In this document: one piece after another, positions 39,919 to 58,353 of the stretch | Numbering within the stretch: position 1 is the stretch's first letter | Layout: each line of letters begins with the position of its first letter | DNA from: Rhizobacter sp. | GTDB lineage: Bacteria; Pseudomonadota; Gammaproteobacteria; Burkholderiales; Burkholderiaceae_C | NCBI GenBank assembly: GCA_023954175.1 | Contig: JAMLIM010000012.1 | Location: forward strand, 1-59,696 | Direction of reading: 5' to 3' | Length of the DNA stretch: 59,696 bases | Position numbers and translations under genes: made by a program | Notes under the pieces: generated by a model | The model's input: only the letters and a program-made list of their open reading frames with translations | Databases searched by the model: none | Told to the model about the DNA's origin: nothing

Positions 39919-41648
39919 CGTGTTCCCCCTTGTTCGGCGCGAGCGAGCGCCGCTTGACGCAGCGCGCTCAATGTCGCGCGGCTCGTGCTGACTTCGACCG
40001 GAAGTTTCAGGTGCAGCAAGGTCGACACCTTGCTTGCCAGCGCGGCGCGCAGCGCGGGCTCGAATTCCGCCGTCTGCGTGACCACAGCGGAAGACCAGCC
40101 GTAGGCGCGAGCGAGCAGCGCGAAGTCAGGATTCGCCAGATCGCTGCCGCTCGTGCGGCCCGGGTACTCGCGTTCCTGGTGCATCCGGATCGTGCCGTAG
40201 CTGCCGTTGTCGACGACGATCGAGATCAGCTTGGCGCCATGTGCGGTGGCCGTCGCGAGCTCCTGCCCCGTCATCAGGAAGTCGCCGTCGCCGGCGAGAT
40301 TGATGACGGTGCGCTCCGGCTGCAACAGTGCCGCCGCGACCGCAGCCGGCAGACCATAGCCCATCGCGCCCGAGGTCGGCGCGAGCTGGCTGCGGCCGTT
40401 GCGCTGCAGGCCCGGATAGCGGTAGTGACGGTGCAGCCAGCCCGAATAGTTGCCGGCGCCGTTCGTCAGGACGGCGTTCTCGGCACCCTGCTCGTTGAGC
40501 ACGCGCTGCAGGCATTGCACGACGAGGCCCATGTCGAGCGCGCTCACGGCCGGGTCGAGCGGGCTCGGCGCGGCGTTCGCCTCGTAGTCGGCGTGCGCCG
40601 CCTCCGCCTGCCCGGCCCACGGCAGTCGAGCGGGCGCGTCCAGCGTCTCGAGCGCCTGCGCCGCGCACGCCATCGACGCCTGCACGAGCAGGTCGGCCGC
40701 ATAGACGCGCCCGAGCTCCTCGGCGCCGGCATGGACGTGGACAAGGCGCTGGCGCGGCCGCGGCGGCTCGAGCAAGGCATAGCCGCCGGTCGTCATCTCG
40801 CCCAGGCGCGCACCGAGGGCGATCACGAGGTCGGCCTCGCGCACGCGCGCGGCGAGCTTGGGCGCAATGCCGATGCCGACATCGCCGGCGTAGTTGGGGT
40901 GGCTGTTGTCGAACAGGTCCTGGAAGCGGAACGCGCAACCCACCGGCAACTGCCAGTGCTCGGCGAAACGCTGCAAGGCGGCGCAGGCCGGGCCGTCCCA
41001 GCCGCCGCCGCCGGCGATCACGAACGGCCGCTCGGCGCCGAGCAGCAGCGCGCGCAACTCGCGCAGCGCGCCCGGCGTCGGCCAGGCCTGCGCCGGCTCC
41101 GCGCGCGGCAGCACGGGCGCGGCGGTCGGCGTCGTCAGCATGTCCTCGGGCAGCGCGATCACGACCGGCCCCGGCCGGCCCTGCAGCGCGGTGTGAAAGG
41201 CGCGCGCCACGTACTCCGGCAGACGGTCGGCGTCGTGCACCTCGCCGACCCACTTGGCGAAGCCGAGCGTGCCCGGGCCGAACATCTGGCGGTAGTCGAC
41301 TTCCTGGAAGGCCTCGCGGTCGCGCTGCGTGCTCGCGACCTGGCCGACGAACAGGATCATCGGCGTCGAGTCCTGGAACGCGGTGTGCACGCCGATGCTT
41401 GCGTTCGTCGCCCCCGGGCCGCGGGTGACGAAGCAGATGCCCGGCCGACCGGTGAGCTTGCCCTGCGCCTCGGCCATGAAGGCAGCGCCGCCCTCCTGGC
41501 GGCAGGCGATGAAGCGGATGCGCTCGCGGTGCTCGTAGATGCCGTCGAGCACGGCGAGATAGCTTTCGCCCGGCACGCCGAAGCAGGTGTCGACGCCCTG
41601 CGCGATCAGCGCTTCGACCAGGGCATGGCCGGCGAGACGTGAATTCAT
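39915..41648 (-). CDS. Thiamine-diphosphate enzyme, acetolactate-synthase-like
   Basis: A 577-residue enzyme of the thiamine-diphosphate decarboxylase/synthase family. The PYR domain has the activating Glu52 ([14 protein letters not shown]) and [19 protein letters not shown], the central domain has FVIAGGGGW, and the PP domain has the [15 protein letters not shown] motif with the later [10 protein letters not shown]. It resembles the catalytic subunit of acetolactate synthase, but no regulatory subunit is next to it, and its tight coupling to an RraA-like aldolase gene suggests a catabolic 2-oxoacid reaction. ATG at 41648. It is transcribed away from the TetR gene; an operator lies 147 nt upstream. 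Confidence 0.83.
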
Positions 41649-41794
41649 GTGTGTGGACTCCGAAACGAGCGCAGAAACGGGTGTGCGCCCGACTGCCCGA
41701 TTGTGCGCAGTTTCTGCGCAACAACGGCGGCAAGGACGGACGCGACGATGAGGGAAACGATGGGCTTGCGTTCGCGGCCCGGGTCGAACCATAC

Positions 41795-41810
41795 TTCAAT
41801 GAATGGTGAA
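41795..41810. promoter_or_regulatory. Candidate operator A (over TetR start codon)
   Basis: TTCAAT-GAAT-GGTGAA, a copy of the TTMACC-N4-GGTGAA palindrome. It covers the TetR ATG (41803), which suggests autoregulation, and sits in the divergent region with the thiamine enzyme gene. Confidence 0.55.
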
Positions 41811-42474
41811 TAAGCGACTCCCGGCCCGTGCCGCCCCGCCGCGCGCCGCCGAACCCCGCCAGCGCGACGCCGACCGGTCGCAGCGCGACATCCTCGACGC
41901 GGCGCGCGACGAATTCGCGCTGCACGGCCTGGGCGGCGCGCGCATGGACCGCATCGCCGAGCGGGCCGGCGTCAACAAGCGGCTGATCTACTACTACTTC
42001 GAGAGCAAGGAAAGCCTGTTCCTGGCCGTGCTGGAGCGCGCCTACGAAGGCATCCGCGGCGAGGAGCAGCAACTCGAACTGACGCAGGTCGAGCCCACCG
42101 AGGCGATCCGCCGCCTCATCGCCTTCACCTGGGACTACTACCTCGCGCACCCCGAGTTCCTGACGCTGCTCAACAGCGAGAACCTGCACCGCGCGAGGCA
42201 TTTGAAGCAATCGAGCAAGATCCCGGCGATGCACTCGCCGCTGGTGCAGACCCTGGCCGACGTGCTCGAGCGCGGGCACAAGAGCGGTGTGTTTCGCGCC
42301 GGCGTCGATCCGGTGCAGCTGTACATCTCGATCGCCGGCTTGTCGTACTTCTATCTCGGCAACAACCACACGTTGTCGACGATCTTCAAGCGCTCGCTGC
42401 TCGGCCCGAAGGCGAAGGTCGAGCGGCTGTCGCACATGACCGAGCTGGTGCTGGGCTATCTGGTGCGCGACTGA
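41803..42474 (+). CDS. TetR/AcrR family transcriptional regulator
   Basis: A 223-residue repressor type protein. Residues ~20-80 are the TetR DNA-binding domain: AARDEFALHGLGGARMDRIAERAGVNKRLIYYYFESKESLF contains the helix-turn-helix (split here only by description). The rest is a helical ligand-binding domain related to the AcrR/TetR C-terminal families (HLKQSSKIPAMHSPLVQTLADVL region). It begins with a basic arm rich in Arg, Pro and Ala. It is divergent from the thiamine enzyme/RraA pair and convergent with the ABC operon. The copy of the shared palindrome on its own start codon makes it the best candidate for the regulator of the whole 41-55 kb region. Confidence 0.9.
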   Translation: MVNKRLPARAAPPRAAEPRQRDADRSQRDILDAARDEFALHGLGGARMDRIAERAGVNKRLIYYYFESKESLFLAVLERAYEGIRGEEQQLELTQVEPTEAIRRLIAFTWDYYLAHPEFLTLLNSENLHRARHLKQSSKIPAMHSPLVQTLADVLERGHKSGVFRAGVDPVQLYISIAGLSYFYLGNNHTLSTIFKRSLLGPKAKVERLSHMTELVLGYLVRD

Positions 42475-42483
42475 CGCAGCGCT

Positions 42484-43239
42484 TCACTCCATCCCGAGCA
42501 GCTTGTAGATGCGCCGCGTGTAGACGCCGAACTTCTCGTGCGTCTTCATGTCGAGCGTGCGCGGGCGCGGCAGGTCGATCTCGATGTTGTCGGCCATGCG
42601 CGCCGGCCCCGAGGTGAGCACGACGACGCGCGTGCCGAGGAACACTGCCTCCGAGATGCCGTGCGTGACGAAGACGATCGTCTTGCCCGAGGCCTTCCAG
42701 ATGCGCAGCAGCTCGAGGTTCATCTTCTCGCGCGTCAACGCATCGAGTGCGCCGAAGGGCTCGTCCATCAGCACCAGCTTCGGGTCGTGCACCAACGCGC
42801 GCGCGATCGCCGCACGCTGCTGCATGCCGCCGGACAGCTCGTAGGGGTACTTGTCCTCGTAGCCCGCCAGCCCGACCATGTCGATCAACGCGCGGCCGCG
42901 CTCACGCGCCTCGCCCATCGGCAGGCCGAGAATTTCCGCCGGCAGCAGCACGTTGTCGAGAATGCGGCGCCACTTCAGCAGCAGCGGCGCCTGGAACACC
43001 ATGCCGATGTCGCGTGCCGGATCGAACGGGTGGCTCGCCGAGCCGATGCGCACCTCGCCGCCATCGTGCGGGTGCAGCCCGGCGAGCACCTTCAGCAGCG
43101 TCGACTTGCCGCAGCCCGAAGGGCCGACCAGCGCCACCAGCTCGCCCGACATGACGTCGAAGGTGGCGTCGGAAATCGCCAGGTGCTTGCCGTAGCTCTT
43201 GCGGACACCCGACAGGTGGATGAAGGCATCGCTGCTCAT
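42484..43239 (-). CDS. ABC transporter ATP-binding protein (SsuB/TauB type)
   Basis: A 251-residue ATPase of an importer for nitrate, sulfonate, taurine or thiamine-precursor-like solutes. Walker A is GPSGCGKST, the signature is LSGGMQQR, Walker B is [12 protein letters not shown], and the switch His lies in FVTHGISEA. Its ATG at 43239 overlaps the permease stop as ATGA. Order in the operon: DapA-like aldolase, permease, ATPase; the binding protein gene is divergent at 45206. It ends 9 nt from the convergent TetR gene. Confidence 0.93.
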
Positions 43240-44003
43240 GACACCCGCGCGTCCTTCGGCACCAGCAAGCGCTCGAGCCCGAGCACCAGGCCGTACAGCA
43301 ACATGCCGATCAGCGTGATCAGGATCACCGCCATGAACATTGCCGGCGTATCGAGCGTCACCTGTACCTGCAGCATCAGGTAGCCCAGGCCCCGATCCGA
43401 GCCGAGGAACTCGCCGACTATCGCGCCGGCCACGGCCAGGATCGCCGCCACCTTCATGCCCGCGAACACATAGGGCAGCGAACCGGGCAACTGGATCTTG
43501 GTGAACAGTTGCCAGCGCGAGCCGCGCAGCGAGCGCACGAGGTCGAGCAGGTCGGGCTCGATCTCGCGCAGCCCGCGCGCCGTGGTCAGCAGAATCGGGA
43601 ACACGGCGATCGCGAAGGCCATCATCGTGTTCGGCAGCACGCCATAGCTGAACCAGACGATGAGCAGCGGGCCGAGCGCCACCTTCGGGATCATGTTCAG
43701 CGTGACGAGCAGCGGCAGCATCAGGGACTCGAGCGTCTTCGACCAGGTGAAAAGCAGCGCCAGCAACACGCCCACGCCGAGCGCCAGCGCGTAGCCACCG
43801 AAGATCTCGGTGCCGGTGACGAGCGTGTTGGCCCACCAGCCGTAGTCCGACACGCCGAGCGCGCGGAAGGTATCGACCGGCGATGGCATGACGTACCTGG
43901 GCACGTCGCCGAGCCGCACGAACAGATACCAGCCCAGCAGCAACAACAGGTGCGCAGCCACGCCCAGCGTGTACTGGCGCAGCCTGGATTCGGAGCGTTC
44001 CAT
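43236..44003 (-). CDS. ABC transporter permease (SsuC/TauC type)
   Basis: A 255-residue inner-membrane permease with six hydrophobic segments and the BPD-transporter signature around [21 protein letters not shown] ... [15 protein letters not shown], which contacts the ATPase. I start at ATG 44003 ([13 protein letters not shown]), 11 nt after the aldolase stop; longer frames only shadow that gene. It forms one importer with the ATPase and the NMT1-like binding protein. Confidence 0.92.
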
Positions 44004-44014
44004 TCGGGGCGCTC

Positions 44015-45076
44015 TCAGGTCAGCCAGCGCGACAGATTCGCCGACACGAAGACGTCGTCGGCCAGGTCGGCGTGCTCGCGGCATACGCGGTCGATCGCCT
44101 TCGCCTGCCCGGGCGACAACCTCTCGTTCGGATCAAGACAGTCGATCCGCTCGAGCAGCCCCTGGCGGCGCAACACCTCGTGGCAGCCGGGGATGCAACC
44201 CGCGAAGTCGTTCGCCACATCGAAGAACGCGCCGTTGCAGTCGGTCACGCGCGAGTCGAGCGCGAGCAAGGCCGCATCGACCGCATCGGCGTCGATCGCT
44301 GCATGGATGCGTTCGAGTTGCTGCACGGCGCTGCGCGTCCACACGCTCCAGTGCCCGAGCAAGCCACCGCGGATGCGCACGCTGATCTCCGCTTCACCGC
44401 GCTTGACGGCATACGGCACGAGCAGATCGAGCACGATGTGATCGTCGTTGCCGGTGTAGAGCGTGACGCGTTCCTCGGCGCCGGCGACGACGACGCCGCG
44501 CACCACATCGAGCGTGCGGTAGCGGTCGAACGGCGCCATCTTGATCGCGATGACGTTGTCGATCAGCGCGAAGCGGCGCCAGAACTCCATCGGCAGCGCA
44601 ATGCCGCCGACCGCCGTCTGCAGGTAGAAGCCGATGAGCGGGATCTGCTCGGCGACGGCGCTGCAATGCGCGATCAACTCGTCGATCGACGCCCCCTTCA
44701 TCGGCGCCAGCGACAGCATGCCGGCGTGGTAGCCATGCTCGAGCGCGATCTGCGCTTCGGCGACCGCCTGCGGCGTGCGGCCCGACAGCCCGGCGATCAT
44801 CGCCAGCGGGCGTTGCGTCCACTCGCGCGCCGTGCGCGCCGCCAGCGCCAGCACCGGCTCGTACAGGCCGACCTCGCGAATCGCGAACTGCGTCGCATGC
44901 ACCCCCACCGCCAGGCCGCCCGCACCGGCATCGATGTAGTAGCGCGTCAGCGCGCGCTGGCGCACGGCATCGAGCTTTCGCGAAGCATCCAGCGCCAGCG
45001 GATGCGCCGGGATGACGCAGCCCCGGCGCAGCAGCGCGGAGACCTCTTGCGGAAGTTCAGATCGATGGGTGCGCAT
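44015..45076 (-). CDS. Dihydrodipicolinate synthase (DapA) family aldolase
   Basis: A 353-residue class I aldolase or lyase of the DapA/NAL superfamily, longer than the usual ~300. The Schiff-base Lys is Lys179 in [10 protein letters not shown], and the strand before it with IGFYLQ supplies the usual Tyr. True lysine-pathway DapA has a Thr-Thr pair near the N-terminus and an Arg that binds the semialdehyde; these are not evident, so it likely cleaves or condenses some other 2-oxoacid. It is the first gene of the ABC operon, which suggests it works on the imported solute. ATG at 45076 lacks a good ribosome site. Two operator copies lie upstream. Confidence 0.85.
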
Positions 45077-45103
45077 AGGGGAAAGTCTGTAGCTGCACCC
45101 ATG

Positions 45104-45119
45104 TCAGCCACTGGGTGAA
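45104..45119. promoter_or_regulatory. Candidate operator B (aldolase/binding protein region)
   Basis: TCAGCC-ACTG-GGTGAA, a weaker copy of the shared palindrome, in the divergent spacer. Its centre is 47 bp from that of operator C. Confidence 0.4.
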
Positions 45120-45150
45120 ACGATTCGGCTGCTCTATACTTTGACGCGAA

Positions 45151-45166
45151 ATCACTAAGTGGTGAA
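45151..45166. promoter_or_regulatory. Candidate operator C (binding protein promoter)
   Basis: ATCACT-AAGT-GGTGAA, with TCAC-N6... GTGA symmetry. It lies directly behind a TTGACG -35 box (45141-45146), in the spacer of the likely rightward promoter, so binding there should block polymerase. Confidence 0.6.
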
Positions 45167-45205
45167 TTTACTGCATCCCCCCACCGAATGGCAACAGGAG
45201 TCTCC

Positions 45206-46198
45206 ATGATCAAGCGCCTCGTAACTTGTGCCGTGCTGGCGGCTGCCGGCTTCGCGTCCTTCTCGGCACACGCCCAGCAGAAGGTCGATTTCATTCTCAA
45301 CTGGGTGCCCGGTGGCGACCACGCACCCTACTTCTTCGCGAAGAAGATGGGGTGGTACGAGAAGGCCGGCATCGACCTGAACATCGAGAACGGCAAGGGC
45401 TCGGCACTCGCGACGCAGCGCGTCGGCGCCGGCATCACGCCGATCGGCCTGGCCGACATGGCCGGCGTGCTCGTCGCCAAGGGCAAGGGCGCGGACTCGG
45501 TGGCGGTCTACAACGTCTATGCCAACTCGCCGCAGGGCATGTACTGGCTGAAGAGCTCGGGCATCAAGGGCGTGAAGGACTTCCCGGGCAAGAAGATAGG
45601 CAATCCGGCCGCCGACGGCGCGCGCGTGATGTGGCCGGCGCTGGCCAAGGCGAACGGCGTCGATCCGAAATCGGTGACCTGGGTGAACATCGACGCCAAC
45701 GCCAAGCTCGCCGCGCTGAAGTCGAAGTCGATCGACGTGACGACCTCCTTCTACAACATCCATCACATCTTCCAGCGCGAGCTCGGCGACGACATGGGCT
45801 TCCTCGCCTGGAAGGACGCGGGCATCAACCCCTACGGCAATTCGATCATCGTCAACGCCAAGTTCCTGGCCGAGAACAAGCCGCTGATCGACAATTTCGT
45901 CAAGGTCACGCAGCGCGCCTTCGCCGCCTGCGTGAAGGACCCGAAGCCCTGCGTGCAGGCGCTGGTCGACGCCAACGGCGCGCTCAAGTTCGACAACGAG
46001 CTCGACAACTGGATGCTGGTCGAGGTGCTGATGAGCGACAAGTTTTCGCGCGAGGTCGCGCTCGGCTACTTCGATCCGGCCCGGATGCAGAGCGACTATG
46101 ACCTGGTCAAGGAATATATCGGCATCGACAAGCCGTTCGACGTGAAGTCGGTCTACACCAACGAGTTCCTCGACCGCTCGATCAAGATGCCGAAGTAG
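45206..46198 (+). CDS. ABC transporter solute-binding protein (NMT1/THI5-like)
   Basis: A 330-residue periplasmic binding protein. The signal peptide (about 23 residues) ends after AHA; the mature start has VDFILNWVPGGDHAPYFFAKKMGWYEKAGIDL, the NMT1/THI5-like pattern seen in binding proteins for pyrimidine precursors, sulfonates and similar organics (quoted here in parts: NWVPGGDHAPY, MGWYEKAG). ATG at 45206 with CAGGAG 5 nt upstream. It is divergent from the aldolase-permease-ATPase operon that should complete the importer, and its promoter region carries operators B and C. Confidence 0.9.
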   Translation: MIKRLVTCAVLAAAGFASFSAHAQQKVDFILNWVPGGDHAPYFFAKKMGWYEKAGIDLNIENGKGSALATQRVGAGITPIGLADMAGVLVAKGKGADSVAVYNVYANSPQGMYWLKSSGIKGVKDFPGKKIGNPAADGARVMWPALAKANGVDPKSVTWVNIDANAKLAALKSKSIDVTTSFYNIHHIFQRELGDDMGFLAWKDAGINPYGNSIIVNAKFLAENKPLIDNFVKVTQRAFAACVKDPKPCVQALVDANGALKFDNELDNWMLVEVLMSDKFSREVALGYFDPARMQSDYDLVKEYIGIDKPFDVKSVYTNEFLDRSIKMPK

Positions 46199-46224
46199 AT
46201 CGGGCCACGCACGCCGCCCGGCGC

Positions 46225-47112
46225 TCAGCCGAGTTCCGGGCCGGCGGCGAGGACGATGTTGGTCGCGTCGCCAGGCGCCTTTGCGGTGCCGTGCACCATC
46301 CGCGTGAACGGGCGCTGAAAGGCGAAACCTGCAGCTTCCAGCCGCGACAGCAGCGCCCGGCGGCGATCGAGCAGGTCGACATAGAGCGGGCCGGTCGCGA
46401 TCCGCAACCCATCGTTCAGCAGGGCCGCGGCCACCGCATCGTCATCGGCGAGCAAGGGGCCGAACTGGACCGCCTCGCGACCATCACGACCGAGCATGTA
46501 GCCGCGAAGCCGGCCGCCGACCTCGGCGACGCGCGCCGCCTGTGGCCAGCGCTGCGCCAGGGCGCGCATCAAGGGCAGCCGCGAGGCGCCGAACGCGGGC
46601 GCATCCAGCGCGTCGATCGCCGGCCAGTCTTCGTCCGCAAGCAAGCGTGTCGTCAGACCTTCCGGAGGCGCTGGAGGTGCCGGCAACGCTGCCCCCGCCT
46701 CGCGCCGATAGCGGGCGAAGCCCCAGGTGTCGGCAAACCCCTCCTGCACATACACCGCATGGCCGGCCGGGGTGGCATCGAGGATCGCCGCCCGCCCCTG
46801 CGAGCCGAGATGTGCGAGGGCATGGCGAAGCAGTCGCTGCGCGTAGCCGCGGCGCCTGAACGCCGGCAGCACCAGCACCATGCTCGTCCACGCGAAGTGG
46901 GCGCCATAGGGCAACACGATGACCGAGGCCGCGAGCGCAGCATGGCCGGCGTCGTCTGCGGCATCGATGCCCCAACCCTGCCCGAGGCGCAGCATCGTCG
47001 ACCAGTCGCTGCGGTTCTGATTCCAGTGTGCGGAGGCCGACAGCTGGACCGCAGCATCGAGATCCGCCGTCGTCAGCGGACGGATCACAGGCGGTGGTTC
47101 AGTACTTGCCAT
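46225..47112 (-). CDS. GNAT family N-acetyltransferase
   Basis: A 295-residue protein. Residues ~8-140 form a GNAT domain with the acetyl-CoA loop VLPAFRRRGYAQRLL and the later ATPAGHAVYVQEGF. The C-terminal half (~150-290) is a second acetyltransferase-like lobe with LLDRRRALLSRLEAAGFAFQRPFTRM, as in YitH-like fusions (two lobes, one likely active). Target unknown. Its start lies inside the last codons of the epimerase gene (14-nt overlap), so it is translationally linked to the epimerase/MetE pair. Confidence 0.8.
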   Translation of the reverse strand: MASTEPPPVIRPLTTADLDAAVQLSASAHWNQNRSDWSTMLRLGQGWGIDAADDAGHAALAASVIVLPYGAHFAWTSMVLVLPAFRRRGYAQRLLRHALAHLGSQGRAAILDATPAGHAVYVQEGFADTWGFARYRREAGAALPAPPAPPEGLTTRLLADEDWPAIDALDAPAFGASRLPLMRALAQRWPQAARVAEVGGRLRGYMLGRDGREAVQFGPLLADDDAVAAALLNDGLRIATGPLYVDLLDRRRALLSRLEAAGFAFQRPFTRMVHGTAKAPGDATNIVLAAGPELG

Positions 47113-48139
47113 CCCGCGTCGAGAAGTGCGTCGGCTTGCCGAGGCTCGGCCCGCCGCGCTGCACCCAGTCCGCGACCCAATCGATCATGCTGTCGATGCC
47201 CACCCGCGGCTCACCGAGCAGCGAGATGGCAAGCGACGTGTCCTCCAGCCACGCGGTCGGCGCCTCTTGTCCGACGAGCCGCGGTTCGCGGCCGAAGCGC
47301 CTGCCGAACTCGCCCGCCAGCCAGCGCACGCTGGTGTGGCGCGGCCCGGTGATGTTGATCGGCGAGGCCGGGCGGGTGCAATGCGCCAGCAGCCGCAACG
47401 CCTGCTCGTTGGCGTCGCCTTGCCAGATGACGTTGGCGTGCCCCATCGTCAGATCGACTTCACGGCCGGCGAAGACCGCGCTGGCGACGTCGTAGAGCAC
47501 ACCGTAGCGCATGTCGATCGCGTACGACAGGCGCACCATGCGGCCCGGCGTGCCGTGCTTGAGCGAGCCGTACTCGAACATGCGCTCGCGGCCGACGCAG
47601 GAGTTGGCATAGTCGCCGGCCGGCGGCGCGGCCGGCGTGCTCTCGTCGGCGCCGGGGCCGTCGACCGGCACGAAGGGATAGACGCAGGCGGTGGAGAAGC
47701 TGACGATGCGCGCATCGCGATAGATGTCCGCCACCATCATCGGCACGCCGACGTTCATCATCCATGTGAGTGCCGCGTTGCCTGCGGCGCCGAACTTGTG
47801 CCCGGCCATGAAGACGCAGTTGCGCACGCCCTCGGCCACGTTCGGCAAGCGCTCGATCGCTTGGCCGTCCAGCAAGTCGCAGGCAATGCATTCGACGCCG
47901 TGCGATTCGAGCGCCGCCTTCACCGTGGCGTCGGAGAATCTCGCGACGCCGATCACGCGCTTGTCCGGTGACGCGCGCTTGGCCATGCGTGCCAGGGTCG
48001 GCCCCATCTTGCCGCCGACGCCGAGGATGATGATGTCGCCATCCACGCGCGCCAGATCGGCCACCAGCGCCGGTGTCGGCTCGCTCATGAAGTCTTCGAG
48101 CGCTTCGACATCGGCGAAGCGCCGCGGCAGGTCGCTCAC
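47099..48139 (-). CDS. NAD-dependent epimerase/dehydratase family protein
   Basis: A 346-residue extended short-chain dehydrogenase. The Rossmann glycine motif is IILGVGGKMGPTLARM (GxGGxxG, residues ~45-53), and the active-site region has FSTACVYPF, while the usual Tyr-x-x-x-Lys appears as a less typical NSCVGRERMFEY (Cys-Val-Gly-Arg). Without the canonical YxxxK it may bind NAD(P) but catalyse poorly or differently. It starts at GTG 48139, overlapping the core-MetE stop as GTGA. It likely acts on the substrate or product of the methyltransferase. Confidence 0.78.
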   Translation of the reverse strand: MSDLPRRFADVEALEDFMSEPTPALVADLARVDGDIIILGVGGKMGPTLARMAKRASPDKRVIGVARFSDATVKAALESHGVECIACDLLDGQAIERLPNVAEGVRNCVFMAGHKFGAAGNAALTWMMNVGVPMMVADIYRDARIVSFSTACVYPFVPVDGPGADESTPAAPPAGDYANSCVGRERMFEYGSLKHGTPGRMVRLSYAIDMRYGVLYDVASAVFAGREVDLTMGHANVIWQGDANEQALRLLAHCTRPASPINITGPRHTSVRWLAGEFGRRFGREPRLVGQEAPTAWLEDTSLAISLLGEPRVGIDSMIDWVADWVQRGGPSLGKPTHFSTRDGKY

Positions 48140-49140
48140 GACGCAATGCCCTCGAAGCGGTCGCGACCCTGGCTCAATGCGCGCATCTTGGCGTCGGCGA
48201 TCGGGCGCTTCAACATCCAGAAGCCGCAATCGGGGTGGATGTAGCGCACGCGCCCGGCGCCTAGCAGTTTCTCGGCGCGCTCGATCGCGCGCGCGACCTG
48301 ATCGGCGCTTTCGACATCGGTCGCCTTGATGTCGACCACGCCCATGCCGAAGCCGATCTCGGGTTTGAGGTCCTTGAACGCGAGCAGTTCTTCGGGCGGG
48401 CGATGCGCGCATTCGAGCACCACATGGTCCGCGTGCAGCGCGTTCAGGTAGTTCATCAGCTTGTCCCAGGTGCCCTTCTGCACAGTCTGCCCGCCGTAGT
48501 TGCCGAAGCACAGGTGGACCGCCGGTGTGCCCGGCACGGCGTCGAGCATGCGGTTGATCGCCGACGCCGCCCACTCCCATTCCTCCGGGTGGCCGGGCAG
48601 GTTCGCCTCGTCGATCTGCACGATGTCGGCATCCAGGTGCTTGACCTGTTCGGCGAGCGCGCCGGCCAGCGCGTGCGCCACTTCGGCGGTGTCGGCGTAG
48701 TGCTTGTTGATCAGCGTCTTCGCGAGCATGTGCGGGCCGGTCACGGTGAACTTGAAGGTGCGCGTGGCGAGCGCCTTCGCGCGCGCGCAGGCGAGCGGCA
48801 GGTCGAGGCTGCCGTGGCCGATCGCGCCGACGACGGTGCCGGGCGGCCGGGTGCGGAACTTCATGCCGCTCTTGGAGCGGTAGGCGATCAGATCGTCGAA
48901 CGAAAAGCGCTGCGTGATGCCGTCCATCGGCCGCACGAAGTACTCGATCATGCCGTTCGTCTCGGGGTGGTTGATGTCGAAGCGGTACAGCTCGCCGTCG
49001 CACACCACGTCCACCCCCGCCTGCTCCTGCGTGCCGATGACGACCCGCGTCGCGTCCATCAGCGCCTGCTCGGACGGATTCGCGACGAGCCAGTCGGGCA
49101 CCGGGTACGAGCCGACGACGGTGGTCAGGATCCTGGGCAT
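48136..49140 (-). CDS. Core-MetE type zinc methyltransferase
   Basis: A 334-residue protein equal to the C-terminal catalytic half of cobalamin-independent methionine synthase. The full zinc-ligand set is present: His209 and Cys211 (VHLCFG), Glu243 (VLECAHR) and Cys305 (HPDCGF). The N-terminal half of MetE, which helps to hold the folate, is missing, as in archaeal-type core MetE proteins. It should activate a thiol or similar group as a zinc thiolate and transfer a methyl group; donor and acceptor are unknown. Its company of a dehydrogenase and transporters argues for catabolism rather than methionine supply. ATG at 49140 with AAGGAGAG upstream; operator D is 16 nt further up. Confidence 0.86.
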   Translation of the reverse strand: MPRILTTVVGSYPVPDWLVANPSEQALMDATRVVIGTQEQAGVDVVCDGELYRFDINHPETNGMIEYFVRPMDGITQRFSFDDLIAYRSKSGMKFRTRPPGTVVGAIGHGSLDLPLACARAKALATRTFKFTVTGPHMLAKTLINKHYADTAEVAHALAGALAEQVKHLDADIVQIDEANLPGHPEEWEWAASAINRMLDAVPGTPAVHLCFGNYGGQTVQKGTWDKLMNYLNALHADHVVLECAHRPPEELLAFKDLKPEIGFGMGVVDIKATDVESADQVARAIERAEKLLGAGRVRYIHPDCGFWMLKRPIADAKMRALSQGRDRFEGIAS

Positions 49141-49156
49141 TGCGTCGCTCTCCTTA

Positions 49157-49172
49157 TTAACCGTTTGGTGAT
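49157..49172. promoter_or_regulatory. Candidate operator D (core-MetE operon)
   Basis: TTAACC-GTTT-GGTGAT: ACC-N4-GGT symmetry around the centre, 17 nt before the core-MetE start, in a 62-nt gap after the enolase-superfamily gene. Confidence 0.55.
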
Positions 49173-49202
49173 GAATGATCCTAGCCCGCGCCTCCGGCAG
49201 CG

Positions 49203-50633
49203 TCAAGGCAGGTAGCGGCACTCCCGCAGGGCCGCGACATCCGGCAGCACGGCGCTGCCCAGGCCCGGCGTATCGAGCGAGCCGATGGCAATCTGCCCCG
49301 CCCTGATCGTCAGGCGCACCGTACCTTCGTCGTCGTGATAAAGGTCTGGATGCGCGGCGAGGAAAGCGAGCTGCTCGGCGCGCGGCGCCCCTGCCAGGCC
49401 GTTGACGTAGTGATGGCCGTTGCGTTCGACGTGCGTGCAGCCGATGAGCGTCGCCAGGGCCAGGTCCTGTTGCACGCAAAGCCCCGCCTGCGTCGTCAGG
49501 TCCTCGGCGGACATGAAGTACTTCTCGGCGCCGGCCTGCGCATTCCAGTGCGCGCAGCGGGCGCGGTTGAGCAGCGAACGATAAAAGCCCTTGCACGACT
49601 TGGACGAGACGCCGGTATAGCCGAGCGCCTTGGCCTCGACAAAGGCGTCGATGGTGGCGTCCGACTCGTCGATTTCCACCGGCTGCAACGACGCCAGCGT
49701 GCCGATGTCGTGCGCGAGCGCGCTGCTGCGCGCGATCGGCTGCTCGATGAAGAGGATCGCTTCGCGCATGCGCTGCAACGCCGGCGTTGTCTCGATGCGC
49801 CGCCACAGTGCGACGACGGCATCGGCATCGGCGTACTGCTCGTTGCCGTCGAGCGTTGCGCGGTAGGCAGGCAGCGCGTCGATGACGCTGGCGATGCGCG
49901 ACAGACGCTCGATGTCGGCGTCGATATCGCCACCGACCTTGAGCTTGAAGTGATCGACCCCGTAGTGCCGCACCACCTCGCGCAGCGTCTCCGGCAGGCC
50001 GTCGTCGACCCGGCTGCCGGCGGCTTGGTCAGCGGCCTCGATCGGATCGACCAGACCGACGGTGTGCCGTGCGGCGATGCCTGGCGCCGGCCTGAGCGTC
50101 GCCAGGAAGGCGTCGAGGTCGAAGCCCCGCAGGTCGGGCGTGGTCGCGGCATCGATGCCGAATCGATTCGCGCGCGTCGCCGCGAACACGCTCTCGCCGC
50201 GCAGTCGAAGCAGCGCGTCGATGATCGCGCGGTCGAGCAAGGCTGTGCCGAAGCCGGCGACGAGCGGCGGCAGGCCGGCCGCCGCGCAGGCCTCGAGCTG
50301 CGCGTCCGACATCGCCGCGTGCAAGCCGAAAGCACTCAGCGGCGCGTCGGCCCCGGCGTAGGCCTGCGCCGCGATCGCCATCGCCTGGCGCAGTTGATCG
50401 AAGTTCTGCTCGTTGCTGAGTGCGGCCGACTTGTCGAACCATTTCGGCGCCAGCAGTTCGGCGGACATGCCCTCACCTTCACGACCCTCTTCGGTGCGGA
50501 TGCGCACCTGCACGAAGGTCTGCGGCGCCTCGCGCAGCGTGACGACGCCGAAGCGAAATGGCATGCGCAGGCGCACGTCGCGTTCGAAGAATCTGGACTC
50601 GACGAGCGTCAGGCGGGGTACTTCCTGGGTCAT
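49203..50633 (-). CDS. Enolase superfamily enzyme (mandelate racemase/MLE-like)
   Basis: A 476-residue enolase-superfamily protein with an N-terminal capping domain and a modified TIM barrel. The catalytic KxK motif is Lys230-x-Lys232 (HFKLKVGG), and metal ligands are probably Asp262 (LDGNEQY), Glu297 (FIEQP) and Asp322/Glu323 (IDES). Lys345 in SSKSCKG may serve as a base on the other face. Such enzymes take a proton next to a carboxylate and then racemise, dehydrate or cycloisomerise. It is about 80 residues longer than most members. ATG at 50633 overlaps the isomerase stop (ATGA). It is the last gene of the TTT operon, so it probably works on the imported acid. Confidence 0.87.
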   Translation of the reverse strand: MTQEVPRLTLVESRFFERDVRLRMPFRFGVVTLREAPQTFVQVRIRTEEGREGEGMSAELLAPKWFDKSAALSNEQNFDQLRQAMAIAAQAYAGADAPLSAFGLHAAMSDAQLEACAAAGLPPLVAGFGTALLDRAIIDALLRLRGESVFAATRANRFGIDAATTPDLRGFDLDAFLATLRPAPGIAARHTVGLVDPIEAADQAAGSRVDDGLPETLREVVRHYGVDHFKLKVGGDIDADIERLSRIASVIDALPAYRATLDGNEQYADADAVVALWRRIETTPALQRMREAILFIEQPIARSSALAHDIGTLASLQPVEIDESDATIDAFVEAKALGYTGVSSKSCKGFYRSLLNRARCAHWNAQAGAEKYFMSAEDLTTQAGLCVQQDLALATLIGCTHVERNGHHYVNGLAGAPRAEQLAFLAAHPDLYHDDEGTVRLTIRAGQIAIGSLDTPGLGSAVLPDVAALRECRYLP

Positions 50634-51466
50634 TGCCTTGCCTCCTGCAATGCACGCATGAAACCCGCGGCGCGGGCTGCGCAGGCGGCACCGTCGGGTT
50701 GGTAGATGAAGGGCTCGACCGCGACCCAGCCCGCATAGCCTTGGCGCGCCAACGCAGCGACGACCGGCGCGAAGGCCATGTCGCCCTCACCCGGGCCGCG
50801 CCGGTTCGGATCGTTCACCTGGACGTGCGCAATGTGCCCGCTCGGCAGCCACCGATCGATGAGGCCGACGACGTCGCCCTCCTGCGTGCCGGCCGCACAG
50901 GTATCGATCATCGTCTTCAGGGCCGGTCTGCCGATGGACTCGACCAGGGCGACCGCTTCTGCGACCGTGTTGATGAAACTGGTTTCCCGCGCGGCGAGTG
51001 GTTCGATGCAATAGGTGACACCGGCATCCGCTGCGGCATCGGCGGCGGCAGCGAAGCATTCGGCGGCGCGTTGGCGCGCGGCATCCTGTCTCGACGATTG
51101 CGAAGCCGTCTGCAGCTTGCGCTGCGCCGGTGAGCCGTGGACCAGCACGCTCGCACCGAGTTCGGCCGCGAGGGCACACAGCGCACGCATCACGTCGATC
51201 GTTTCGCGCCGCACCGACGCCTCCGCGCTCGTGATCGACAGGCCATGCGGCGCGACGAGCAGCCAGTGCAGGCTTGAACAGGCGAGGCCCTCCGCGGCAA
51301 GCGCTGCGCGCACACCTGCGATGCGCCGCGGCGTCAGTTTGCGCGGGTCGGCGCTGAGCGTGAACGGCGCGATCTCGAGCGCGTCGTAGCCGACGGCTGC
51401 GGCAAATGCGCACTGGCGCGCGAAGCTCCACGGGCGCAGCACTTCGTTGCAAAGCGAAAGTCTCAC
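50630..51466 (-). CDS. Sugar phosphate isomerase/epimerase (xylose isomerase-like TIM barrel)
   Basis: A 278-residue AP-endonuclease-2/xylose-isomerase-like barrel. Conserved pieces are the N-terminal LSLCNEVLR, a metal-binding Glu in YCIEPLAAR, Asp in TMIDTCAA, His-Val in HIAHVQVND, and the last Glu in VAVEPFIY. These match the metal site of hydroxypyruvate isomerase-like and 3-dehydroshikimate-dehydratase-like members. I start at GTG 51466, overlapping the tctA stop as GTGA. Reaction unknown, but its place in a TTT operon points to catabolism of a hydroxy acid or keto acid. Confidence 0.85.
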   Translation of the reverse strand: MRLSLCNEVLRPWSFARQCAFAAAVGYDALEIAPFTLSADPRKLTPRRIAGVRAALAAEGLACSSLHWLLVAPHGLSITSAEASVRRETIDVMRALCALAAELGASVLVHGSPAQRKLQTASQSSRQDAARQRAAECFAAAADAAADAGVTYCIEPLAARETSFINTVAEAVALVESIGRPALKTMIDTCAAGTQEGDVVGLIDRWLPSGHIAHVQVNDPNRRGPGEGDMAFAPVVAALARQGYAGWVAVEPFIYQPDGAACAARAAGFMRALQEARQ

Positions 51467-52965
51467 GGATGCCTCCTGAACAGGGCACGCGTCAAGCGGC
51501 GCACCGGCGCAATGCCCCAAAGCAGCGCGGTCAGCGTCAGCAGCGCCAGCACCGCGGAGATGGGGCGCGTCAAAAGCGGCTCGAGCGAGCCGTCGGACAA
51601 CACCATCGCACGACGAAAGTTCTTGTCCAGCAGGTCGCCGAGCACGATGCCGAGCACGAGCGGCGCCATCGGATAGTCCATCTCACGCAGCGCAAAGCCG
51701 AGCACGCCAAAGCCGAGCATGACCCAGACGTCGAAGACGCGGCTCGTGATGGCGTACGAGCCGACGACGCACAGCACGAAGACGAGCGGCATCAGGTATT
51801 GACGCGGCACGCGCAGCACATAGAGCATCGGCCGCGTCAACGCCAGGCCGAGCACCAGGATCGCCACAGACGCCCAGAACAGCATCGCCGCGACCTCGAA
51901 CACGAAGTTCGGGAACTCGATCATGATCAGCGGGCCCGGCCGGATGCCGTGGATGAACAGTGCCGCCAGCAGCACCGCAGCAGGCGCAGAACCCGGCACG
52001 GCCAGCGTCAGCACCGGGATGATCGCGCCCGGCACCGCGGCGTTGTTGCCGGTTTCCGCGGCGAGCAGGCCCTCGGTGTTGCCCTTGCCGAAGCTGTCGG
52101 GGTCCCGGCTCGCGCGGCGCGCCGCGGCATACGACACCCAGGCGCCCATGTCCTCGCCGACGCCGGGGATGATGCCGATCACCGTGCCCGCCACGCCCGA
52201 GCGCAGGATCGTCCACCAACGGCCGAAGATGTCTCGCGCCCGCGGCAAGATGCGCCGCCCGCTGTCGCGCACGGTCTCGTAGGTCGTGTGCTTCATGACG
52301 CTCAGGATTTCAGCAAAGCCGAACGCACCGACGAGCGCGGGCAGCAACCCGAGCCCGCCTGCGAGGTCGGTCGAGCCGAAGGCAAAGCGCGGGTAGGCAT
52401 GGATGCCCTCCTGCCCCACCTGGGCGATCAGCAGACCGAGGAAGCCCGCGATCCAGCCCTTGATCGGGTCGTTCATCGCCGTGATGCGTCCGGAGATCAC
52501 GACCCCGAAGATCGCGAGCCAGACGAACTCGAAGGACTGGAACTTCAGCCCGAGCTCGGCCAGCTGCGGCGCGATCATCACCATCAGCAGCATGCCCACG
52601 ACGCTGCCGAAGAACGAGCCGACGGTGGCGATGCCCATCGCCTCGCCGGCGCGGCCCTGGCGCGCGAGCGGAAAGCCGTCGAGCGTCGAGGCCGCATTCG
52701 CCGGCGTACCCGGGATGTTGAGCAGGATCGCCGAGCGGCTGCCGCCGTAGATGGCGCCGACGTAGGTGCAGATCAGGATCAGGATCGCGTCGCCGGCGGC
52801 CAGGCGAAACGTCAAGGTGGTGAGCAACGCGACGCCGAGCGTCGCCGTCAGGCCCGGCATCATGCCGACCGCGATGCCCAGCAAGGTCGCCCACGCGACA
52901 TCGAACAACGTGCTCGGCGTCGCGAACACGCCGATCGCGTGGATGAACTGGCTCAGGCCTTCCAA
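51463..52965 (-). CDS. tctA: TTT family large permease subunit TctA (second system)
   Basis: A 500-residue, roughly 12-helix TctA. The family repeats are GMMPGLTATLGVALL and GIIPGVGEDMGAWVSY, plus ILLNIPGTPANAAS. I start at TTG 52965 (MEGLSQFIHAIG), which fits the family start and lies 34 nt after tctB; longer frames shadow tctB. It is clearly different in sequence from the tctA at 31.9-33.4 kb, so the two transporters should have different substrates. Confidence 0.92.
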   Translation of the reverse strand: MEGLSQFIHAIGVFATPSTLFDVAWATLLGIAVGMMPGLTATLGVALLTTLTFRLAAGDAILILICTYVGAIYGGSRSAILLNIPGTPANAASTLDGFPLARQGRAGEAMGIATVGSFFGSVVGMLLMVMIAPQLAELGLKFQSFEFVWLAIFGVVISGRITAMNDPIKGWIAGFLGLLIAQVGQEGIHAYPRFAFGSTDLAGGLGLLPALVGAFGFAEILSVMKHTTYETVRDSGRRILPRARDIFGRWWTILRSGVAGTVIGIIPGVGEDMGAWVSYAAARRASRDPDSFGKGNTEGLLAAETGNNAAVPGAIIPVLTLAVPGSAPAAVLLAALFIHGIRPGPLIMIEFPNFVFEVAAMLFWASVAILVLGLALTRPMLYVLRVPRQYLMPLVFVLCVVGSYAITSRVFDVWVMLGFGVLGFALREMDYPMAPLVLGIVLGDLLDKNFRRAMVLSDGSLEPLLTRPISAVLALLTLTALLWGIAPVRRLTRALFRRHP

Positions 52966-52999
52966 ACGCGCCCTGCCGATCCTGCCAAACCCGCATGCG

Positions 53000-53485
53000 T
53001 CATGGCAGACGTACCAGGAACACCTGCTCGAACAGCAGGCTGACGCCAACCGCCACTGCGATCGCGGTCAAGGCGGCGCCGAACAAATTGCGCATCCAGC
53101 GGTCGCGCCCGGACGAGAAGCTGGCGATGAAGGCGAACACGAAAAGCCCGGTGGCCCAGCGAAAAGGCAGATGCCCGAGCAGGCCGAGCGCATAGACAAG
53201 GCACAGGCCGAGCGCCAGCAAGGCGCGCCACCACTGCGTGTTGGCGGCTGCTTCGCTTGCCGGCGCCGAAGGTGCGGCCGGCGTGCGCAGGCTGCGCCAG
53301 AGCAGGGTCAAGCTCATCACGGCGAGGATCAGTGCGAGCAGCCCCGGTGTCAGCCCCGGTGCGCTCATCGGGTGCACGCCGAGTTCGGCCAGGCGCGGCA
53401 TGCGCCACGACTCGACCAGAACCCACAGCGCCAGGGCCGTGAGCACGATGGAGAAGATCAGGTCGGCGCGGCGCTGGGTGGACAC
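53000..53485 (-). CDS. tctB: TTT family small permease subunit TctB (second system)
   Basis: A 161-residue membrane protein with four hydrophobic segments and a TctB-like layout (short cytosolic start, helix 1 around residues 8-25, a loop with GLTPGLLALILAVM, two C-terminal helices). Starts at GTG 53485. It lies between the binding protein (85 nt upstream) and tctA, as usual. Confidence 0.88.
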   Translation of the reverse strand: MSTQRRADLIFSIVLTALALWVLVESWRMPRLAELGVHPMSAPGLTPGLLALILAVMSLTLLWRSLRTPAAPSAPASEAAANTQWWRALLALGLCLVYALGLLGHLPFRWATGLFVFAFIASFSSGRDRWMRNLFGAALTAIAVAVGVSLLFEQVFLVRLP

Positions 53486-53570
53486 GGTGGCTTCAGTTCA
53501 GGGCACGCGCCGTGCGCCGCGACGGCGGCGACACACGGCGAGGCCTTGACGACTCAGGGGCGGGCGCGGC

Positions 53571-54587
53571 TCAGGGCTTCGGGATGCCGAGCGATTCGGG
53601 CGACACCTTGGCGCGCCCGGCCGCCTGGAACGACCAGGCGTCGGCCTGGATCTCGGGCCACACCTTGTCACGCGCAGCCTGGCCGTAGGCGGGTGTGAAC
53701 AGCGCACCCTTTTCCAGCGCATAGGCCTTGAGCTTGGCGTTGGTCGGGATCTTCTTTGCCCAGATCATGTTCAGCGTCTCGATCACTTCCGGCGGCGTGC
53801 CCTTCTTGGGCAGCACGATGCCGAAGGTGGTCGACAGGATCGGCATCTTGGTCGTGATGAAGTCCGTGATCGGCGGGATCTTGCCGTAGCCCTCGATCTC
53901 GAGCGCGTGATCCGACAACACCGCGAGCGGGCGCAGGCGCTTGCCGCGCACCATCTCGGCCTGCTCGGAGGCGAGCTGCGTTGTCGCCTGCGCCTCGCCG
54001 GCGACGGTCGCCACCACCGCCGGGTTGCCGCCGTCGTAGGTGACGTGCTTGTAGCCGCCGCCGACCGCCGCCTTCAAGGCCTCGGCCGCTGCATGGCCCG
54101 ACGATCCGGCGCCCGCGGTGGCGATCGTCACCGTGCCGGCCTTCATCGCGGCGATGAATTCGGGCATCGTCTTGTATGGCGAATCCGGGTTCACCGACAC
54201 CAGCGGTACGTTGGTCACCGTGTTGTAAAGCTGCCAGTCGTCGATCCAGGTGTCCCATTGGCCGAGCAGCTTGTAGGTGCCGAGTTGCTTGGGGGCGCCC
54301 GCGGTCCAGGTGTAGCCATCCCGCGGCGCCTCCCAGGCGTTCTTGGTGCCGATCGCGCCCGATGCGCCGGGCTGGTTGACGACGACCACGCGCTGCTTTA
54401 ATTCATCCTCGAGTACGGCCGCCGTCAGCCGCGTCACCTGATCGGTGGCGCCACCGGCGCCCCAGGGCACGATGACCGTGATCGGCTTGGTCGGCTTCCA
54501 GGGATAGTCGTCGGCGAACGCGGTGCCCGCGGCGAGCGTCATTGCCGCGCCCAACGCGAGGGTCGAGCCAAGTTGGAATCGGTTCAT
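53571..54587 (-). CDS. tctC: TTT periplasmic solute-binding protein TctC (second system)
   Basis: A 338-residue Bug-type binding protein with a standard signal peptide ending AFA near residue 25. Mature motifs are VIVPWGAGGATDQVTR, VVVNQPGASGAIG and a later GAGSSGHAAAEAL. Compared with the first system it has an Asp in GGATDQ and a longer C-terminus. ATG at 54587 with TGGAGG upstream. First gene of the operon tctC-tctB-tctA-isomerase-enolase family; operator E is 19 nt upstream of its start. Confidence 0.92.
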   Translation of the reverse strand: MNRFQLGSTLALGAAMTLAAGTAFADDYPWKPTKPITVIVPWGAGGATDQVTRLTAAVLEDELKQRVVVVNQPGASGAIGTKNAWEAPRDGYTWTAGAPKQLGTYKLLGQWDTWIDDWQLYNTVTNVPLVSVNPDSPYKTMPEFIAAMKAGTVTIATAGAGSSGHAAAEALKAAVGGGYKHVTYDGGNPAVVATVAGEAQATTQLASEQAEMVRGKRLRPLAVLSDHALEIEGYGKIPPITDFITTKMPILSTTFGIVLPKKGTPPEVIETLNMIWAKKIPTNAKLKAYALEKGALFTPAYGQAARDKVWPEIQADAWSFQAAGRAKVSPESLGIPKP

Positions 54588-54605
54588 GCGGTGCCTCCAG
54601 AAGTG

Positions 54606-54621
54606 TTATCGATTCGGTGAA
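54606..54621. promoter_or_regulatory. Candidate operator E (TTT operon)
   Basis: TTATCG-ATTC-GGTGAA, one good half-site and one degenerate half-site, just upstream of the tctC ribosome site. Confidence 0.45.
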
Positions 54622-54759
54622 TAGCCTGCCCGGGTCAGTATCGAATCGACACCCGCCACTGTCAAGGGACCAAGGGAGGTCCATTGGCTCGGGCGGGACA
54701 AACCCCGTCGCTGCGCTCACGCCGCCACGGCCGCGCGCGCAACATGAACGGCCCGGTTC

Positions 54760-54806
54760 TTGACGTTCGCAGGGCCGACGTCTAAACTAATTCACCATCC
54801 GGAGAA
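54760..54806 (+). promoter_or_regulatory. Promoter plus operator F of the FAD oxidoreductase operon
   Basis: TTGACG (54760-54765), 17-nt spacer, TAAACT (54783-54788) form a good sigma-70 promoter. Directly behind it lies TTCACC-ATCC-GGAGAA (54791-54806), the best symmetric copy of the shared palindrome (5 of 6 pairs), placed over the expected start of transcription. Confidence 0.65.
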
Positions 54807-54941
54807 CTATTCGGATCGTTGTTGCTTGCCGATGGCGGATGGGCGGGTACCGCGCGCTGAATGCACCGCAGCCGTCCCGCGATCGCCCGGCGCCAGTCGT
54901 CGCACCATCCGGTGTTGCACCGGACACAACCGGAGCCCGTC

Positions 54942-56510
54942 ATGACCCACGACTTCATCGTCATCGGCTCCGGCCACAACGGCCTCGCCTGCGCCGGCTA
55001 TCTCGCCAGGGCCGGCGCCAAGGTTCTCGTTCTGGAGAGCAGTCCGCGCATCGGCGGCAGCTGCCACACCGCCGAGGCGACGCTGCCCGGCTTCAAGCAC
55101 AACATCTGCTCGGTCGTCCACACGCATATACCGCTCAGCCCTGTCTACCGCGACCTGGAGCTCGAACGTCATGGTGTGCGCTATGTCTATCCGGACTCAC
55201 TGCGCGCGACGATCTTCCCCGACCACCGAAGCATCGTGATGTATCGTGAATCCGAGAAGATGGCGGCGGAGATCGCCAGGTTCTCGGCCCGGGACGCGAA
55301 AACCTACACGCAGCTGCTATCCGACTACGGCGAGTTCATCGATCTGACATTCCTGCCGATGATGTATTCGCCGCCGCTGCCGCCGTCGCTGCAGACGGCG
55401 CAGCTCGAGCAATCCGAAGAAGGCAGGACACTGCTGCAGTGGCAGGCGAGCACGCCGGTGCAGTTGCTCGACGAACTCTTCGAGTGCGAGCAGGTAAAGG
55501 TCCATTTCCTGACCCGCATGACGGTGCTCGGATTCGCGCCCGATCAGCATGGGCAGGGATGGATCTGCCTCTTTCGCATCCTCAAGGGCGAGGCGCCGAT
55601 CTGCGTCGGCGGGTCCCAGCAGTTGGCGCAGGGGTTGAGGAACGCACTCGAGGCGCACGGCGGCGTGGTGCAGACGGGCGTCGGCGTGAAGCGCATTCTG
55701 ATGAGTGGCAACCGGGCGACCGGCGTGGAACTGAACGACGGAACGCGGCACGGCGCTGCGAAGGCCGTCATCACGAATGTCGAGCCAAAGCAGAGTTTCC
55801 TAAAGCTGGTCGGCGAAGAGTTCCTGCCGCCGACCTTCGTCACCCGGGTCAGGAACTACCATGCGCGCGGCCGCTCGTTGATGGTGCTGCACCTTGCACT
55901 GTCGGAACCGCCGCAGTACCGGGCCGCGGTCCAGAACCCCGCAGCGAACCGCGCGTTCAGCCAGGAGATGTTCGGCGCCACGATGGCCGAGCAGGTGCTC
56001 GCGTACCAGCAGATCGCACGCGGCGAGCCGCCGCGCAAGGAAATGTTGCAGATCTGCATGCCCACGCTCTACGACCCTTCGCAGGCGCCGCCGGGCAAGC
56101 ACACGGCCGTCGTCTGGCAGTACGCGCCGTACGAGGTGGCGCCGGACGGGCCGCAAGGCTGGCGCAACATGCGAGAGGAGTACGCTGCGCATCTGCTGGA
56201 CCAGTGGTGCTCGTACGCACCAAACATGACGCGAGACAAGATCCTCGCGATGAAGATCCAGGACCCCACCGACACCGAACGGCACAACGTCAACATGGTC
56301 AACGGCGTCGACGTCGTGGGCGACATGACACCCGACCAGATGGGCTACTTCAGGCCGTTCGCCGGCTGGTCGAACTACCGCTCGCCCGTCGATGGGCTCT
56401 ACATGTGCGGCGGCTTCTGCCATCCCGGCGGCGGCGTGCATGCCGGCGCAGGGCACAACGCCGCGACGGTGATCGCGGAGGACTTCAAGCTCAACAAGTG
56501 GTGGCCCTAA
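54942..56510 (+). CDS. FAD-dependent phytoene-desaturase-like oxidoreductase
   Basis: A 522-residue flavoprotein of the carotenoid desaturase/amine oxidase fold. The FAD-binding start is FIVIGSGHNGLACAGYLARAG followed by VLVLESSPRIGG (quoted in parts: GSGHNGLACA is the dinucleotide motif), and the C-terminal FAD motif is MCGGFCHPGGGVHAGAGHNAA. Proteins of this group are found in many non-carotenoid-making bacteria, and their substrates are unknown; no other carotenoid gene is here. ATG at 54942 with GGAG upstream. The next gene starts on its stop codon (TAATG). It lies behind operator F. Confidence 0.86.
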   Translation: MTHDFIVIGSGHNGLACAGYLARAGAKVLVLESSPRIGGSCHTAEATLPGFKHNICSVVHTHIPLSPVYRDLELERHGVRYVYPDSLRATIFPDHRSIVMYRESEKMAAEIARFSARDAKTYTQLLSDYGEFIDLTFLPMMYSPPLPPSLQTAQLEQSEEGRTLLQWQASTPVQLLDELFECEQVKVHFLTRMTVLGFAPDQHGQGWICLFRILKGEAPICVGGSQQLAQGLRNALEAHGGVVQTGVGVKRILMSGNRATGVELNDGTRHGAAKAVITNVEPKQSFLKLVGEEFLPPTFVTRVRNYHARGRSLMVLHLALSEPPQYRAAVQNPAANRAFSQEMFGATMAEQVLAYQQIARGEPPRKEMLQICMPTLYDPSQAPPGKHTAVVWQYAPYEVAPDGPQGWRNMREEYAAHLLDQWCSYAPNMTRDKILAMKIQDPTDTERHNVNMVNGVDVVGDMTPDQMGYFRPFAGWSNYRSPVDGLYMCGGFCHPGGGVHAGAGHNAATVIAEDFKLNKWWP

Positions 56511-58335: not shown

Positions 58336-58353
58336 CGCTGTAGGACACGCACG

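Follow-up and report, generated by a model that had tools for sequence, protein, structure and literature searches.

In a 59,696-nt stretch of Rhizobacter sp. DNA (contig JAMLIM010000012.1, assembly GCA_023954175.1; hereafter the window, from a genome of 3.92 Mb), we identified five candidate operators, A, C, D, E and F, through which a single, autoregulated TetR-family repressor encoded at 41803 is highly likely, on comparative sequence evidence, to control a transport and catabolism regulon. The five are very probably sites of this TetR because related bacteria have them in front of the corresponding genes. The regulator, the operators and a sixth candidate site, B, are listed here with the rank of each operator among all window positions.

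41803..42474, plus strand: TetR-family regulator of 223 aa, with TetR_N and TetR_C_29 domains
41792..41813: operator A, rank 1; predicted to serve autoregulation, and may also be shared with the thiamine pyrophosphate (TPP)-enzyme gene that diverges from tetR
45148..45169: operator C, rank 2; divergent promoter region of nmt1 (plus strand) and a dihydrodipicolinate synthase (DHDPS)-like gene (minus strand)
54788..54809: operator F, rank 3; before the fad-coxG-gfo-duf993 run
49154..49175: operator D, rank 4; start region of a MetE-like gene (minus strand)
54603..54624: operator E, rank 5; before tctC (minus strand), one half degenerate
45101..45122: site B, close to where the -35 region of the nmt1 promoter would be expected; unsupported as an operator

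A sequence-only reading of the window had proposed all six as copies of a palindrome, TTMACC-N4-GGTGAA, and had considered GGTGAA rare on base composition. The six strings are indeed present, and A, C, D, E and F, unlike B, proved to be more than chance matches. GGTGAA, in contrast, turned out to be common, with 45 occurrences in the window versus 15.6 expected in shuffles, and the loose consensus, allowing up to two mismatches, was unenriched in the organism's own genome (117 places versus 114 for a reversed control on the forward strand; 115 versus 110 on the reverse strand). The case thus had to rest on comparison with relatives, and the loose consensus was dropped as a genome-wide signal in favor of a stricter palindrome read from these relatives. 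A search for the TetR protein across 399 genomes of the family yielded 177 with a match at E 1e-40 or better; a match of 2e-76 or better (at least 56% identity) was taken as a close orthologue and was present in 79 of the 399, lower-scoring matches among those listed being about 42-52% identical. Most of the 1.5-kb flanks of 30 TetR matches (29 relatives and the window), from which the palindrome was first read, displayed AATTCACC-N4-GGTGAATT, or TTAACC in one half. The proposed consensus thus extends outward to (T)AATTCACC-N4-GGTGAATT(A), and the case rests on this fuller palindrome, A/T flanks included. The strict pattern was written WTTMACYN4RGTKAAW, with the same pattern reversed as a control. 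A second search provided 80 named loci, 69 of which (L066-L134; 60-88% identity; Rubrivivax, Ramlibacter, Variovorax, Pseudorhodoferax, Caenimonas and Pandoraea among them) harbor close orthologues, while the 11 distant ones (L135-L145; 42-51% identity) were excluded from locus counts. A symmetrised weight matrix was then built; its 51 unique strict matches came from 52 of these loci, all of Burkholderiales outside the window's clade, and the other 17 loci (L066-L079, L099, L112 and L123), which include that clade, were held out of training. Sites in loci were called above 8 bits.

When the 59,675 positions of the window were scored with this out-of-clade matrix, A (23.6 bits), C (23.4), F (20.7), D (20.3) and E (6.8) occupied ranks 1-5, and the sixth-best position reached 0.55. 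The maximum was 10.6 in 100 dinucleotide shuffles of the window and 17.3 with 200 half-shuffled matrices on the window itself. A, C, D and F exceed both controls; E, by score, does not, and was accepted because of orthology, as 13 of 14 loci, and 8/8 of those held out, have an operator before tctC. Site B scored -7.7 bits (rank 16), its GGTGAA was not kept in the relatives' promoters compared, and it was rejected as an operator. When up to two mismatches were allowed, the own genome had 24 places with the strict pattern versus 11 for the control; A, C, D and F were among the 24, and E, with three mismatches, was hence not. Scored over the 18 core columns, A, C, D and F were the top four (21.7, 17.0, 15.7 and 12.1), followed by two places outside the window (10.7 and 10.0) and by E (9.1). 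Over all 22 columns, the best of the 11 other own-genome places scored, out of 20, reached 7.9, 7.9 and 7.1, slightly above E. There was no exact strict match in this genome, and a single mismatch was seen at two places, namely site C and a place on contig 66 within very long open frames.

The 69 close loci contained 132 sites distributed over 65 loci, none of them inside mapped genes (60 bases trimmed per end). For the relatives' mapped genes, this speaks against a motif that is equally common within genes; for the own genome and for unrelated promoters, the answer is partial (24 places versus 11, with A, C, D and F the best four scored). The held-out loci alone accounted for 32 sites in 17/17 loci, where 30 shuffled matrices gave a mean of 0.3 and a maximum of 5. 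Operators at gene starts were next counted for genes matched across half their length with the start and 200 bp upstream present, a site being accepted if it lay no more than 60 bp into the gene or 200 bp ahead of its start. Besides tctC, an operator stood at the start of nmt1 in 12/14 loci (held-out 8/8), of dhdps in 11/15 (7/7), of metE in 8/8 (5/5; L071 and L072 contribute the divergent site), of the TPP-enzyme gene in 31/38, mostly shared with tetR (3/9), and of tetR itself in 47/67 (8/17). The divergent pairs nmt1/dhdps and tetR/TPP enzyme have one operator per pair. The conservation before orthologues anticipated from the window sequence was thus borne out for tctC, nmt1, metE, the TPP enzyme and tetR. 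No operator was found at the starts of the enolase-like (0/16), tim (0/20), tctA (0/13), tctB (0/2), rraA (0/13), gnat (0/10), duf993 (0/44) and coxG (0/3) genes, and few at those of the epimerase (2/13), ATP-binding cassette (ABC) ATPase (3/20), permease (3/16) and gfo (5/47) genes. The gfo gene is mostly not first in its run. In the one example inspected, L086, a Bug/TctC receptor gene lies between gfo and the site that follows tetR.

Across the family, the operator and the TetR protein occurred together. The strict pattern was matched in 105 of the 399 genomes, namely 62/79 with the close orthologue and 43/320 without it (Fisher p 1e-28), and removal of the 30 genomes used to write the pattern left 40/49 versus 43/320 (p 7e-22). 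The reversed pattern showed no association (7/79 versus 42/320), and the rate in TetR-negative genomes can be considered background since the control yields 42/320. These p-values are not to be taken literally because the genomes share ancestry, and half-site counts are non-independent for the same phylogenetic reason.

The regulator itself is a clear member of its family. TetR_N (PF00440) was recognized with E 8.1e-18 (64.4 bits versus a cut-off of 24) and TetR_C_29 (PF17938) with 153.7 bits versus a cut-off of 26.2; the predicted model is helical (predicted local distance difference test score [pLDDT] 91.5), and the 50 matches listed in a fold search with this model are TetR-family-like regulators by title. 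As expected of such a protein, palindromic operators lie at its own and neighboring promoters, as judged by sequence and conservation. In the 54 loci whose recognition helix reads NKRL, with Leu in fourth place, all of which have sites, operator position 3 was C in 151, A in 65, G in 1 and T in 1 of 218 half-sites, whereas in the 15 loci with Met instead of Leu, 11 of them with sites, it was A in 42 and C in 2. Operator position 3 thus varies with the helix residue, which supports, short of proof, a predicted contact between the two. The TetR at 41803, singled out as the candidate from the window alone, was retained on three grounds: the operator co-occurs with it, sits at its start in most loci and varies with its recognition helix. 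In the distant TetR loci L135-L145 there are at best related palindromes, such as AAATTAACCGATTGGTACATTA in L144 and AAACTAACCAGTTCGTACATTA in L137 and L139, which possibly form a series of diverging operator specificities.

The placement of the five sites, too, is that anticipated for a repressor, as all overlap or closely follow -10-like boxes (sigma70-like boxes were read by eye throughout). Site A overlaps the -10 box of TTGCGT-N18-CATACT, and its degenerate form (TACTTCA...GGTGAAT) is the same in L073, L075 and L099. The annotated tetR start codon falls inside operator A; the true start may lie further downstream, at the position of the ATG in these three loci. A TATACT box is found 7 bp upstream of site C in the window and in 8 of 9 relatives compared, and 11 bp upstream in L077. 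Site D directly follows TTGACG-N17-TAGGAT, and an operator likewise comes after TTGACG-N17-TAGCAT in L069 and TTGACT-N17-TAGCAT in L077. Site E lies 12 bp downstream of TTGACA-N17-GATACT, and site F abuts the -10 box of TTGACG-N17-TAAACT. In L069, L071, L072, L079 and L080, the gfo-side promoter can be aligned with that of F, operator included, and every one of them retains the TTGACG box and a TAATT-AC core. Because fad is without an operator in three other fad-bearing loci, F is best read as the old promoter of a gfo operon behind which fad-coxG was placed later. Ahead of gfo, positions 57053-57137 align, with gaps, to the 3' end of a PhyH (phytanoyl-CoA dioxygenase) gene found there in L071 and L072, and may be a remnant left where fad-coxG replaced PhyH. 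Between E and F, positions 54652-54697 form an imperfect inverted repeat with 20-nt arms that are 75% complementary.

From the computed sites, their conservation and positions, and their co-occurrence with TetR, we propose that a TetR dimer would physically bind (T)AATTCACC-N4-GGTGAATT(A) at A, C, D, E and F. Site A would act on tetR's own promoter and perhaps on the divergent TPP-enzyme gene; C on the divergent NMT1-type ABC uptake and DHDPS-like genes; D on the MetE-like gene and those behind it; E on the TctCBA-TIM-enolase genes; and F on fad-coxG-gfo-duf993, the extents of these operons being predicted. Given this placement on or just behind sigma70-like boxes, the bound dimer should block RNA polymerase and so repress. 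A pathway substrate or early intermediate would then bind the TetR_C_29 domain as inducer and release TetR, so that the two uptake systems and the catabolic enzymes would be turned on in concert.

A number of observations weigh against this model. In the 52 training loci, which fit the matrix partly by construction, shuffled matrices reached up to 23 sites versus 100 for the real one. Site E is weak, its score being matched or surpassed in both window controls and at other places in the genome; fad, the first gene behind F, has an operator at its start in 0/3 loci of relatives; and 17 of the 79 TetR-positive genomes, the window's own included, are without a strict match. The tetR gene is without a site above 8 bits in 9/17 held-out loci, among them the window's nearest relatives, and the transport genes thus appear to have kept their control more consistently than tetR its autoregulation. 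No site was found in L111, L117, L122 and L129, which all belong to the Met group, and the helix-operator covariation stops short of proof because the Leu and Met groups are also groups of relatives. Finally, DUF993 was above cut-off in 84/399 genomes (74/79 with TetR and 10/320 without), so that only 15 genomes separate the two proteins, and the motif was present in 2/5 with TetR alone and 1/10 with DUF993 alone.

This last point bears on the best-surviving alternative, namely that a different regulator binds the palindrome and that TetR is a mere passenger of the gene cluster. Since TetR and DUF993 are nearly always together, co-occurrence alone separates them poorly; yet none of the 18 other proteins scanned with Pfam between 39.4 and 59.5 kb was a transcription regulator, a site lies at tetR's own start in the majority of loci, operator base and recognition helix vary together, and in L101, where tetR is 1.1 kb beyond duf993 and its own site is absent, two operators nonetheless stand before gfo. 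We therefore consider a passenger TetR improbable. Marginally less probable still is that TetR activates, or both represses and activates. The C promoter is without a good -35 box, as is often the case of activated promoters, but all five window sites overlap or lie no more than 12 bp downstream of a -10-like box, which is repressor geometry, and most characterized TetR-family members are repressors. Chance or base composition, which the unenriched loose consensus and the abundance of GGTGAA would favor, and which holds for B and by score alone is possible for E, is very improbable as a general explanation; out-of-clade ranks, held-out conservation and co-occurrence refute it for A, C, D and F.

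We also compared the system with known ones. RutR, the TetR-family repressor of pyrimidine use in E. coli, was the top PDB fold match (6z1b; E 1.9e-8, TM score 0.72, 23% identity), and its consensus, TTGACCA-NN-TGGTCAA, has the same ACC-N4-GGT core and spacing with a different third base. The G expected at that third base was, however, found in only 1 of the 218 half-sites of the 54 Leu loci, 216 having C or A. Membership in RutR (TIGR03613) was rejected at 62.9 bits versus an equivalog cut-off of 368, the TetR_C_29 domain of the window protein was counted as a further difference, and no rut genes were recognized among the annotated window genes, where operators precede the tctC, nmt1, dhdps, metE, TPP-enzyme and fad-gfo runs. 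As described in passages of PMC10891134, RutR binds a palindrome of about 16 bp, which is also the case here. The closest solved structure by sequence was DIP1788 of Corynebacterium diphtheriae (3npi; E 1.9e-22 with a single sequence, 9.1e-37 with a profile; about 25% identity), also ranked 3 and 4 by fold, which lends no function because it is titled only 'TetR family regulatory protein'. The TetR-family regulons of FabR, FadP, LiuQ, PsrA and RutR, reconstructed by comparative genomics in Proteobacteria according to passages of PMC5343134, represent the same kind of system and of evidence; the pathways stated for them in these passages are fatty acids, branched-chain amino acids and pyrimidines, none with the present target set. 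The PA3973 motif SAAGRNMTGAACG, as given in passages of PMC9736018, is different from the present palindrome and was set aside. Among the papers listed in the literature searches, neither the regulon nor the motif was found in print by title or start of abstract, or in passages of PMC5343134, PMC9736018, PMC10891134 and PMC12694930, and the literature search returned no paper naming DUF993. The kind of system is ordinary and well known, while neither this instance nor its motif turned up in the searches made; the more interesting part is the pathway, whose genes behind the operators are as follows.

39915..41648, minus strand: TPP enzyme of PRK08199-like type, in divergent orientation to tetR and followed by an RraA-like protein; possible target of A
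44015..45076, minus strand: DHDPS-like protein, followed as far as 42484 by genes for an ABC permease and ATPase
45188..46198, plus strand: NMT1/THI5-like substrate-binding protein
48136..49140, minus strand: cobalamin-independent methionine synthase-like (MetE-like) protein (Meth_synt_2)
47099-48055 and 46225-47112: epimerase and GNAT protein, respectively, behind the MetE-like gene
49203..54587, minus strand: tctC-tctB-tctA, xylose-isomerase-like triosephosphate isomerase (TIM) barrel and enolase-superfamily protein; the run behind E
54942..59544, plus strand: flavin adenine dinucleotide (FAD) oxidoreductase, CoxG/SRPBCC, Gfo/Idh/MocA oxidoreductase and DUF993; the run behind F

The Gfo/Idh/MocA protein (57172-58335) has a very close solved relative, 3oqb (E 9.6e-192), titled only 'Oxidoreductase', and DUF993 has a solved relative, 4dnh, titled 'Uncharacterized protein'; one conserved gene set thus contains the families of two uncharacterized structures. 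The predicted model of DUF993 was poor (pLDDT 66.7) and was set aside, and for the enolase-like protein the PDB gave no match at 1e-4. The genome contains a further DUF993 fragment, scoring 244.7 bits, at the edge of a contig (G000:C8:2-445), and another copy or a strain mixture may thus exist. Uptake modules differ between loci (Bug/TctC or NMT1-type ABC), as do oxygenase/oxidase modules (PhyH in L071 and L072, fad-coxG in the window). We give roughly even chances to the proposal that the operators mark an undescribed catabolic pathway of Burkholderiales, in which a conserved core would stand behind interchangeable modules under one TetR and operator switch. This core would comprise the Gfo/Idh/MocA dehydrogenase and DUF993, often together with the xylose-isomerase-like TIM barrel and the TPP enzyme. 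The gene types (dehydrogenase, AP_endonuc_2 dehydratase, TPP hydrolase and aldolase) presumably recall the breakdown of inositol-like rings, by resemblance only.

For the family, the analysis provides an operator matrix and a candidate regulator with a close orthologue in 79 of 399 sampled genomes, 62 of which carry the strict operator, and the recognition-helix and operator changes among TetR_C_29 proteins constitute a small natural data set. DUF993, a domain of unknown function, is now tied to a defined and probably co-regulated gene set, and screening compounds for release of TetR from its operator would offer a direct route to the substrate of the pathway.

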